NCBI RefSeq assembly: GCF_000010785.1
Contig: NC_013799.1
Coordinates: 682,001 to 746,000, forward strand
Length of the DNA stretch: 64,000 bases
From: Hydrogenobacter thermophilus TK-6
GTDB taxonomy: Bacteria; Aquificota; Aquificia; Aquificales; Aquificaceae
Direction of reading: 5' to 3'
In this document: positions 1,114 to 4,840 of the stretch, piece after piece
Position numbering within the stretch: position 1 is the first letter of the stretch
How the letters are laid out: every line of letters begins with the position of its first letter
The notes under the pieces: generated by a model
Databases searched by the model: none
Seen by the model: only the letters and a program-made list of their open reading frames with translations
Told to the model about the DNA's origin: nothing
Made by a program: the position numbers and the translations under genes

Positions 1114-3105
1114 TCATAATAGATTTAAAAGCTCTCTGAGTTTTTTAATCTCATCCCTAAGTTTAGCAGCCTTTTCAAACTCCCACTTTTTGGCGCACTC
1201 CAGCATTTCCCTTTCCAACTTCTCAATTCGGCGGATGATATCCTCCTCGCTTTTTATCCCCTTGGGAATCTCGGAAGGTACCTTAACATAATCCAGCTCC
1301 TCAATAGAGAGGAGGTCTTTGACAGGTTTGACTATGCTTCTGGGGGTTATTCCGTGAAGATGGTTGTGTTTTCTTTGCTTTTCTCTTCTTCTTCTGGTTT
1401 CCTCTATGGCTCTCTTCATAGATTCTGTCATCCTGTCTGCGTAAAGAATAGCCTTTCCGTTTATGTTCCTTGCAGCTCTGCCTATGATTTGTATGAGGGA
1501 TGTGTAGCTTCTCAGAAAGCCTTCCTTGTCTGCATCCAGTATGGCAACCAGAGAAACCTCTGGAAGGTCAAGCCCCTCCCTGAGCAGGTTTACACCTACT
1601 ATAACATCTATGCTTCCTTCTCTGAGGTCTTTTATGATCCTCGCCCTCTCTATGGCATCCAAGTCCGAGTGCATGTATTTGGCAGAGACTCCTCTCTCCG
1701 TAAGGTAGTCTGCCACTTCTTCCGCGAGTCTTTTGGTGGTGGTAAGCACAATTGCTCTCTCGTTTCTTTTCTTTCTTATTTGAATTTCCCTGAGCAGGTC
1801 CTCCAGCTGTCCTCTCGTAGGTCTTACTTCCACCTCCGGGTCTAAAAGACCAGTAGGCCTGACTATCTGCTCCACTATGATGCCTCTGCTCCTCTGAATT
1901 TCCCAATCGCCGGGCGTTGCGGATACATAGATAACTTGGTTTATCCTCTCTAAAAATTCCTCAAACTTTAGAGGTCTGTTGTCCAAAGCTGATGGCAATC
2001 TCCAGCCATACTCCACCAGCTTTTCCTTTCTTGACCTGTCTCCGTTATACATAGCTCTTATTTGTGGCACTGTCACATGCGACTCGTCTATTATCAGCAA
2101 AAAGTCCTTGGGGAAGTAATCAAGAAGCGTAAAGGGTGGCTCTCCGGGCTTTCTACCATCAAAGTACCTTGAGTAGTTCTCTATCCCCTTGCAGTGCCCT
2201 ATCTCCCTTATCATCTCTAAATCATACATGGTTCTCTGGTAAAGCCTTCTGGCTTCAAGCTCCTTTCCCTGATTTTTGAACCACTTGACCCTCTCTATAA
2301 GGTCCCTCTCTATCTGCAAAAGAGCATCCTCTACTGTGCTTCTTGGTGCTATGTAGTGGGATGATGGGAAGATGGTAAATTCCTCAAGCTCTCCAATGGT
2401 GTGCCTGTTTAGTGCATCTATAAGGGTGATCCTTTCTATCTCATCATCCCAAAACTCTATCCTGACTATCCTATCCTCCGCATCCGAGGGGATGACCTCT
2501 AATGCGTTTGCCCTGACGCTAAAGGTGGCTCTTTTGTATGTGTAGTCATTTCTCTGATAGCCAAGCTCTACAAGTTTTCTGAGCAGTTTGCTGGTGCTTA
2601 TCCTCTCGCCTACTCTCAGCTTTATCCTCATGGAGTAGTAATGATGAGGAGACCCAAGTCCGTATATACAGGAGACCGATGCCACAACTATAACATCCCT
2701 CCTTTCCAGCACGGATATGGTGGCAGAATGTCTGTAGCGCTCCAACACTTGATTGATGGAGGCATCCTTTTCTATGTACAGGTCTTTCTCAGGTATGTAA
2801 GCCTCGGGCTGGTAGTAGTCGTAATAAGAGATAAAGTACTCCACGGCGTTGTTGGGAAAAAGCTCTTTGAACTCTCTGTATAGCTGTGCTGCCAGCACTT
2901 TGTTGTGAGCTATGACAAGAGTTGGCTTATTGTACTGAGCTATAAGATTTGCAAGAGTAAAGGTTTTTCCCGTGCCTGTAGCTCCCAAAAGCACCTGCTC
3001 TTTTACTCCTCTTTCCAGGTTATTCAAAAGCTCCTCTATGGCTTTGGGCTGATCGCCTGCTGGCTTTAAGCTTGTTTGCAAAACAAACCCTTCCTGAACT
3101 TTCAT
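1114..3105 (-). CDS. uvrB: excinuclease ABC subunit B
   Basis: UvrB, the damage-verifying subunit of nucleotide excision repair that is loaded by UvrA and recruits UvrC. At 663 aa it is of normal length. Walker A GATGTGKT is at residues 41-48, the damage-binding beta-hairpin region ([13 protein letters not shown]) near 92-104, the helicase motif [10 protein letters not shown] near 336-343, and the C-terminal UVR domain ([15 protein letters not shown]) in the last 35 residues. It starts at ATG 3105. A TATATT box sits 8 bases upstream and no Shine-Dalgarno is visible, suggesting a leaderless transcript. It is divergent from mnmC2, with only 16 bp between the two start codons, and heads a three-gene operon. 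Confidence 0.98.
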
Positions 3106-3121: not shown

Positions 3122-4084
3122 ATGCTGGCACTAAAACTTGACAGCTATCTTTTAAAAGCAGGCATTGAGCTAAGTCATAGGAGCAAAGAGAACATACTTA
3201 GGGAGTTAACAGCTTGGTTAAATCCATCCGCTCTGGGCTCAGGTTTGGTCATCACGCAAGACGGCAGTTATACACTTGTAAGCTCTGCCTACGGAGAGCC
3301 ATATCACAGCATAAGCGCAGGTGCCATAAGAGAGTGCCTTTTAAAGTTCGTGGAACCATCTACGGTACTTGAAAGGTCCAAAGTAAAAAGCGAGGTAAAG
3401 CTGTTGGACATTGGCTTTGGCTTGGGCTATAACCTGGCGGTGGCAATAAAACACCTGAGAGATATAAACCCAAAGGTGCGTATAGAAATACGGTCTTTTG
3501 AAAAAGAGCTTTTGCAGGACATACCCCTTTTGCCAGAACCTTACAGACAGTACCACAAACTCCTTCTTGATGGGCTTCCTGAGTTGGAAAAAGATGGAAT
3601 AAGCTTTAAACTTCTCATCGGGGATGCAAGGCAGAAGATAAAGGAAGTTGAGGGTTTTGGTGCAGATGCTGTATTTCACGATGGTTTTTCACCTTACAGA
3701 AATCCGGAACTCTGGAGCTATGATTTTTTAAAAGAGATAAAACAAGCCATGGCGGAGGATGGCTTCTGGGTATCTTACACCTCATCACTGCCTGTGCGAA
3801 AAGCTCTAAGGATGCTAAGCTTTGGCATAGCAAACTCCAGGAGTGTAGGCAGAAAGAGGTCTGGCACCGTAGCATCCCTTTCATTAAAAGAGAGTCTGGG
3901 ACCTGGCGAGATAGAAAAACTTAACTCTTCACCTTACGCCATACCCCTCAGAGATGAAAACCTTAAGATGGAGCCTCTTGAAATACTCATAGATTACAGA
4001 GTGAGGGTTGAACTTTTAAAAGTGGCCCAGGGCGGAATCGAACCGCCGACACCCCGGTTTTCAGCCGGGTGCTCTACCAACTGA
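3122..4084 (+). CDS. mnmC: stand-alone tRNA MnmC2-type methyltransferase (DUF752)
   Basis: A stand-alone MnmC2 domain: the SAM-dependent methyltransferase that converts nm5U34 to mnm5U34 in tRNA, without the FAD oxidase domain fused to it in E. coli. The Aquifex aeolicus DUF752 protein is the characterised example of this architecture. Visible signatures are [11 protein letters not shown] (about 61-71), the SAM motif [11 protein letters not shown] (94-104) and [16 protein letters not shown] (about 183-198). It starts at ATG 3122. The reading frame has no stop until 4084, so the last ~20 codons run antisense through the tRNA-Phe gene at 4023-4095. The tail [13 protein letters not shown] is simply the antisense of the tRNA. 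The enzyme domain itself ends before it. Confidence 0.9.
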
Positions 4085-4095
4085 GCTACCGGGCC
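4023..4095 (-). tRNA. tRNA-Phe (anticodon GAA)
   Basis: The minus strand folds as a canonical 73-nt cloverleaf. The acceptor stem GGCCCGG pairs with CTGGGCC with one G-U. The D arm is GCTC...GAGC, the anticodon stem CCCGG/CCGGG with loop CTGAAAA gives anticodon GAA, and the T arm is GGCGG-TTCGATT-CCGCC with discriminator A. CCA is not encoded (the next bases are CT). G+C-rich stems fit a thermophile. The gene lies antisense to the 3' end of mnmC2 (62-bp overlap). Confidence 0.97.
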
Positions 4096-4105
4096 TGACA
4101 AAAAT

Positions 4106-4111
4106 ATTATA
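4106..4111 (-). promoter_or_regulatory. -10 box of tRNA-Phe
   Basis: A perfect TATAAT on the minus strand ends 10 bases before the first tRNA base (4095), leaving a leader of only a few bases. No clear -35 hexamer was found at 16-18 bp spacing. Confidence 0.5.
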
Positions 4112-4210: not shown

Positions 4211-4840
4211 ATGCAGAAGGAAGAACTTGTGGTAGAGGTTATACGCAGGCTTGAGAAGGTTTATCCCAATAAGTTGGAGCTAAACTTTAAAAACCCTTTT
4301 GAGCTTCTCATTGCGGTTATACTTGCAGCTCAAACAACGGATGCTAAAGTAAATCATGTTACGGAAAGGCTTTTTAAAAAGTACAAGACGCCTGAGGATT
4401 ACCTTAGGGTGCCACTTGAGGAGCTACAAGAAGATATAAGCTCAATAAATTATTACAGAAATAAGGCAAAGTATATAAAAGGTGCTTGTAAGATGATAAT
4501 TGAAGATTACGGTGGGGAAGTTCCCAAAAGCATAGAGGAGCTTACAAGACTTCCGGGTGTGGGAAGAAAGACTGCCAACATGATCCTTTATAACGCCTTT
4601 GGCATAAACGAAGGCATAGCGGTTGATACGCACACGGCAAGAGTGAGCAAAAGGCTGGGACTTACTGAGGAAGAAAAGCCAGATAAGATAGAGCAAGAAC
4701 TTATGCAGATAACTCCCAAAGAAGAGTGGGGAAAACTCTCCAACCTCCTTATACTGCACGGCAGGTACATATGCACTGCCAAAAATCCCAAGCACAAAGA
4801 GTGCGTACTTTATGACCTTTGCCCTTCAAGAGAATCTTGA
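4211..4840 (+). CDS. nth: endonuclease III (DNA glycosylase/AP lyase)
   Basis: Base-excision repair glycosylase that removes oxidised pyrimidines and cleaves AP sites. It has the usual length (209 aa). The helix-hairpin-helix LPGVGRKTAN carries catalytic Lys120, and catalytic Asp139 lies in AVDTHTARVS. The C-terminal [4Fe-4S] loop normally reads C-x6-C-x2-C-x5-C. Here it is Cys188-x6-His195-x2-Cys198-x5-Cys204, so the second ligand is His (codon CAC, two base changes from TGC). It is the first gene of a seven-gene operon; rsmA begins inside its stop codon. Confidence 0.96.
   Translation: MQKEELVVEVIRRLEKVYPNKLELNFKNPFELLIAVILAAQTTDAKVNHVTERLFKKYKTPEDYLRVPLEELQEDISSINYYRNKAKYIKGACKMIIEDYGGEVPKSIEELTRLPGVGRKTANMILYNAFGINEGIAVDTHTARVSKRLGLTEEEKPDKIEQELMQITPKEEWGKLSNLLILHGRYICTAKNPKHKECVLYDLCPSRES

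Follow-up and report, generated by a model that had tools for sequence, protein, structure and literature searches.

The window, a 64,000-nt stretch of the complete, 1,743,135-base genome of Hydrogenobacter thermophilus TK-6, contains an mnmC2 gene that runs into a tRNA-Phe gene from the opposite strand, so that the two genes share their 3' ends over 62 nt (Table 1). The tRNA is a cloverleaf with a GAA anticodon and scores 72.1 bits, above the Rfam cut-off. ARAGORN gives its span as 4022–4095 and acceptor pairing gives a body of 4023–4095; as read from the sequence, the CCA is not encoded in the DNA. It is the only tRNA-Phe among the 43 tRNA genes of the genome. Folding of both strands at the tRNA gave the cloverleaf and its mirror and no other structure.

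Table 1. Features at the junction of mnmC2 and tRNA-Phe (window coordinates).
Feature	Position	Strand	Remarks or basis
mnmC2 ORF (tRNA U34 methyltransferase, stand-alone MnmC2 type)	3122..4084	+	320 aa including the antisense-tRNA tail
tRNA-Phe(GAA)	4023..4095	-	ARAGORN and acceptor pairing
Codons 297–300 (E-L-L-K), end of the last predicted helix, adjoining the tRNA	4010..4021	+	purifying selection at the protein level
Codons 301–320, tail from the tRNA antisense	4022..4081	+	ORF, loci compared, AlphaFold2
TGA stop of mnmC2, complement of tRNA bases 12–14 (T12-C13-A14)	4082..4084	+	sequence
TATAAT, -10 of the tRNA-Phe promoter	4106..4111	-	by eye; the consensus scan did not list it
nth (endonuclease III), next gene in the mnmC2 direction	4211..4840	+	
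uvrB, divergent neighbour of mnmC2	1114..3105	-	

As the original prediction stated, mnmC2 has no stop before the opposite-strand tRNA, and its last 20 or so residues (301–320) are antisense tRNA. More precisely, codon 301 starts at 4022, and two of its bases, residues 302–320, and the stop are antisense tRNA. The codon before it (codon 300, AAA) is the complement of the UUU of the tRNA's 3' trailer. The tail alone is not surprising, because any gene that enters tRNA-Phe antisense gains a tail of this size or longer: each of the three antisense frames stays open for 20 codons or more, and the frame used by mnmC2 is the only one with a stop inside the tRNA. The feature that is not due to chance, judging from the genomes compared, is the conservation of the run-in, in 17 genomes and in one frame.

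By homology, the product of mnmC2 is a genuine MnmC2. Its best solved relative is the A. aeolicus MnmC2 (3vyw, E = 6.2e-105, with residues 5–297 aligned), and Pfam Methyltransf_30 (PF05430) matches residues 154–253 (E = 1.1e-31). The A. aeolicus protein is orthologous and is also without the MnmC1 domain, but it has 308 amino acids and no antisense-tRNA tail. In genome G001, which we take to be A. aeolicus (the tRNA coordinates agree), mnmC2 is far from tRNA-Phe among the matches listed. An AlphaFold2 model of the TK-6 protein (from six aligned sequences) has a mean pLDDT of 83.5; the last helix (residues 285–302) is confident, residues 308–320 are below 50, and the tail is predicted to be disordered.

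Among the matches listed, 114 of 136 Aquificota genomes have a match to mnmC2 and 131 have a match to tRNA-Phe. The two genes are flush and in the same frame in 17 of the 114 genomes with mnmC2 (again among the matches listed), namely in all five genomes of the window's genus (g1), in 11 of 14 from genus g6, and in the single genome of g5. (This count is based on the loci that we fetched and on by-eye comparison of the listed mnmC2 and tRNA coordinates. Two named records with the same junction, L002 and L004, were left out, as they are probably the same as G039 and G042.) The common tail is [VM]AQGG[IVLF]EPPTPRFSA[GV]CST[NS]. In g1 and g6, the junction reads V-E-L-(L/I/Q)-K and then [VM]AQGG. 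In g5, it reads I-R-V and then MAQGG, which is four codons shorter with an identical frame. The remaining three g6 genomes (G037, G041, and G047) gave no match to mnmC2. G037 and G047 are also without a good tRNA-Phe match among the matches listed, which fits an assembly gap. G041 (90% complete) retains tRNA-Phe, and a search for an mnmC2 remnant beside it (contig 55; L096/L114) found nothing better than chance on that contig. The lock between mnmC2 and tRNA-Phe can apparently be broken, then, unless the G041 assembly is at fault.

We built trees from UvrB and MnmC2 together (22 genomes) and from UvrB rooted on g4 (40 genomes). In both trees, g8 and g9, which are without the overlap among the matches listed, nest among the lineages that have it. 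A clade of g1 with g6 was rejected with UvrB and MnmC2 (p-AU = 4.6e-8), with MnmC2 alone (p-AU = 0.0023), and with UvrB alone after G041 and G037 were added (p-AU = 0.012). Support is weak for some of the deeper branches (81/51 in the UvrB tree for g1 with g9, g8, g5, and g6), and the placement of g5 (G034), which is on a long branch in both trees, is unsure. So, either the overlap was already present in the ancestor of the five genera and has been lost two or more times, or it arose repeatedly in the same register. Parsimony alone favours separate origins; that the g1 and g6 junctions are identical favours an ancestral overlap.

In g3, the gene that meets tRNA-Phe is topA. It is convergent on the tRNA in 10 of the 13 g3 loci examined, and the other three have no topA there. 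(Topoisomerase I was identified by Pfam in L310 and L311; the remaining topA ORFs were named from the alignment of their ends.) In six g3 loci, topA stops 1–2 nt before the tRNA, and in G001 it likewise stops at the edge. In four g3 genomes (G012, G014, G017, and G024), topA runs in, in the frame that mnmC2 uses; the tail in G014 starts with VAQGG. These four make up one branch of the UvrB tree, with support of 98/97. One g3 genome has FKEK-stop-MAQ where others have FKEV-MAQ or FKEV-VAQ, a difference that shows the step from a flush end to an overlap.

To see how genes end near tRNAs more generally, we surveyed the 3' edges of 212 tRNAs in five Aquificota genomes (G000, which is TK-6 itself, and G036, G001, G052, and G122). 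(The survey used 41 distinct tRNAs for G001 and 42 for G122, for each of which the Rfam search gave 43. ORFs that overlap a tRNA with their 5' ends were dropped, as the start codons of such ORFs are uncertain.) For 59 of the 212, an ORF of 150 amino acids or more converges on the tRNA and ends no more than 300 nt away. The end of the ORF is no more than 3 nt from the tRNA edge in 20 of these 59 cases, and in 11 the ORF extends at least 10 nt into the tRNA. Eight of the 11 have a family match, including two copies of mnmC2, of which the one in G036 was identified by homology only. Two have no known family (at Arg-CCT in G000 and at Ala-CGC in G052), and the last, in G122, was not scanned for families. 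Other genes of G000 also run antisense into tRNAs: that of a LysR regulator enters tRNA-Arg(CCG) by 68 nt, that of a serine recombinase enters tRNA-His by 62 nt, that of a PLD nuclease enters tRNA-Gly(CCC) by 20 nt, and that of a P-II protein enters tRNA-Leu(CAG) by 19 nt. In the relatives, the overlaps are polyprenyl synthetase with tRNA-Ser (40 nt, G036), inositol monophosphatase with tRNA-Cys (32 nt, G001), and a transporter with tRNA-Met (19 nt, G052). Six types of gene have family-matched run-ins of over 30 nt (mnmC2, topA, LysR, recombinase, inositol phosphatase, and polyprenyl synthetase), and five of the six use the mnmC2 frame, although this is a post-hoc count.

The enzyme class to which MnmC2 belongs acts on U34 of tRNA, and the pairing of a tRNA-modifying gene with a tRNA had seemed curious but perhaps accidental. 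That topA, LysR, and recombinase genes also enter tRNAs supports an accident. We also considered a functional tie between MnmC2 and tRNA-Phe and rejected it as unneeded: tRNA-Phe has G34, and unrelated genes overlap tRNAs in the same way.

Is the frame translated up to the tRNA and into it? Across 16 species of g1 and g6, codons 296–300 of mnmC2 have pS = 0.683 and pN = 0.052, for a ratio of 0.076, as compared to pS = 0.730, pN = 0.262, and a ratio of 0.359 for codons 1–288. In 12-codon windows along the gene, the ratio ranges from 0.069 to 0.645 (median 0.346) and is 0.182 for codons 289–300. Synonymous changes reach the edge of the tRNA, while the amino acids and the frame are kept. For example, codon 299 varies among CTC, TTG, CTT, TTA, ATA, CTA, CAG, and CTG and is never a stop. 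All 16 species have AAA at codon 300, probably because of a constraint on the side of the tRNA: elsewhere in the family, too, the trailer of most tRNA-Phe genes is U-rich at this site. Given protein-like codons up to the edge and no stop between, we infer that ribosomes must enter the tRNA antisense. In the tail (codons 301–320), pS is 0.057 and the ratio is 0.70, and the one residue that is set by tRNA base 59, the freest base, varies (I, L, V, or F). The tail appears to be conserved as the tRNA is, by constraint on the tRNA, and nothing suggests selection on it as protein. Earlier, a protein tail and an antisense RNA had been offered as an either/or. The selected codons at the edge and the lack of a stop argue for the tail, but the either/or does not stand, because any mnmC2 transcript that reaches its stop contains the tRNA complement.

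The explanation that we hold to be very probably correct is that mnmC2 and tRNA-Phe form a fixed, inherited convergent 3' overlap in which the tRNA supplies the stop and the tail, and that no special function is needed. In this family, tRNA genes often abut convergent genes at their 3' ends. A small change could then remove the mnmC2 stop at the edge, and the next stop would be supplied by the tRNA. Because the tRNA cannot change, the tail and the linkage would become fixed. Ribosomes would translate 20 codons of tRNA antisense, which would yield an MnmC2 with an unstructured tail dictated by tRNA-Phe. Any mRNA that carries the mnmC2 stop would include at least 62 nt complementary to tRNA-Phe, so that an antisense tRNA-Phe RNA is expected, and the primary transcript of tRNA-Phe may extend into the 3' end of mnmC2. 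Neither a special function for the tail nor a coupling of MnmC2 to tRNA-Phe would be required. The overlap is real and old, but it is probably a side effect of how closely the genes are packed and not a means of regulation. It resembles the convergent overlapping pairs of compact bacterial genomes, in which the genes are on opposite strands, share 3' ends, and are kept together by an inherited overlap. It differs in that one partner is a tRNA, whose structure sets 20 residues and the stop of an enzyme.

A second possibility, which we consider unlikely, is that the overlap is a regulatory device: transcription would pass through tRNA-Phe, and head-on transcription or pairing of mRNA with tRNA would tie MnmC2, or the operon downstream, to tRNA-Phe synthesis. 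In its favour, the next ORF in the mnmC2 direction begins only 19–39 nt behind the 5' end of the tRNA in 12 of 16 genomes, and this gap also holds the tRNA's -10, which makes read-through from mnmC2 plausible. (The gaps in the other four are 1, 61, 115, and 461 nt, with the 1-nt case probably due to a mis-set start.) However, the gap is AT-rich, and the downstream gene may have a promoter of its own there, in which case read-through would not be needed. A scan for promoters and terminators found one site on the + strand in the gap and one terminator-like site on the - strand upstream of the tRNA. It found no terminator-like site behind the tRNA, and the counts of both kinds of site were near the shuffle expectation.

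There is a precedent for RNA from both strands of such a locus. For tRNA-Pro(TGG) of A. aeolicus, dRNA-seq detected antisense transcripts, which a Northern blot confirmed (PMC4227106). In G001, a convergent ihfB-like ORF ends 3 nt from this tRNA. As at our locus, a tRNA (tRNA44 Pro-TGG) lies against the 3' end of a convergent gene, but that protein gene stops before the tRNA whereas mnmC2 ends inside it. The authors leave open the functional role of tail-to-tail transcripts (PMC4227106).

The gene content around the pair also argues against a regulatory device. The genes downstream vary by lineage. In the mnmC2 direction, the tRNA is followed by nth in G000 and by a related ORF in G028. G025–G027 have a different gene in this position, murB-like by eye, and 10 of the 11 g6 loci have one that is cytochrome-like, again by eye. 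On the other side, uvrB is on other contigs in G025–G028 and is far off in the complete g6 genomes G035, G036, and G038. That the mnmC2/tRNA-Phe pair persists while its neighbours change counts in favour of the inherited overlap. Further points against a regulatory device are that the partner of the tRNA in the sister clade is topA and that g8 and g9 are without the overlap (among the matches listed).

On the tRNA side, an AT-rich, TATAAT-like element is at the same place upstream of tRNA-Phe in the relatives (by eye). In the window (4096–4111) and in the relatives, the -10 is about 10 nt from the mature 5' end, again by eye, from which a 5' leader of just a few nt is expected.

Third, the tail could be a working part of MnmC2, such as an extra segment for binding tRNA or for stability. 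This seems very unlikely: although the tail is kept in three genera, its invariance is forced by the tRNA, the residue at free base 59 varies freely, the tail is predicted to be disordered, and topA carries the same tail.

Finally, AntiFam entries are held to be spurious, and some of them are peptides of this kind. The AntiFam antisense-tRNA translations also have a tRNA on the opposite strand, but the peptide at our locus closes the conserved frame of an enzyme, with a conserved MnmC2 body and the pN/pS ratio of 0.076 at its edge. An artefact (a missed stop before the tRNA or a spurious end to the ORF) is scarcely credible even though genes predicted across tRNAs are known to give rise to spurious proteins (PMC9710616), because the body is that of a genuine MnmC2, the codons change as in a protein across 16 species, and the junction is likewise open, and in the same frame, in 16 other assemblies, which excludes the missed frameshift or base error that was a concern at the outset. 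TK-6 also has a second published genome, determined independently (PMC3111988).

Returning to the inherited overlap without special function, we can ask how far it extends. It could be one case of an architecture for 3' ends across the Aquificaceae, in which tRNAs are the ends of convergent genes (the trailer read backwards gives TAA and, if that is lost, bases 12–14 give TGA), MnmC2 and TopA have tRNA-encoded tails, and antisense tRNA within mRNAs influences the levels of tRNAs or mRNAs. Taken as a whole, this broader idea is unlikely. Our search of open-licence full texts found no report of the mnmC2/tRNA-Phe overlap. At this locus, one stretch of DNA is both a single-copy tRNA and the opposite-strand end of a conserved enzyme, and therefore annotation rules that forbid a CDS from overlapping a tRNA would truncate real proteins. 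The family also offers natural replicates of the formation of overlapping genes: mnmC2 in three genera, topA in one subclade, and relatives whose stop is at the edge. And head-on transcription over a single-copy tRNA becomes testable.

We also noticed several other ORFs that end in or cross tRNAs. The large serine recombinase of G000 (L080) has its last 20 residues antisense in tRNA-His, and it may possibly belong to an integrated element that uses the 3' end of the tRNA. In both genera, lpxK (identified by Pfam for the G000 copy) extends 38 nt into a tRNA-Lys(CTT) gene on its own strand (L071 of G000, with the tRNA at 1501–1573, and L120 of G036). As the lpxK stop is inside this tRNA, an RNase P cut at the tRNA's 5' end would remove the stop codon. 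The 3' end of a pnp-like ORF (by eye) overlaps a same-strand tRNA-Thr(CGT), by 44 nt in G000 (L074) and by 11 nt in G036 and G052. In G052, ORFs for a GHMP kinase, an amidohydrolase, and a class IV aminotransferase (L219, L233, and L235) traverse tRNA-Gln, tRNA-Pro(CGG), and tRNA-Leu(TAA), crossing the whole tRNA in the sense direction at their 3' ends.
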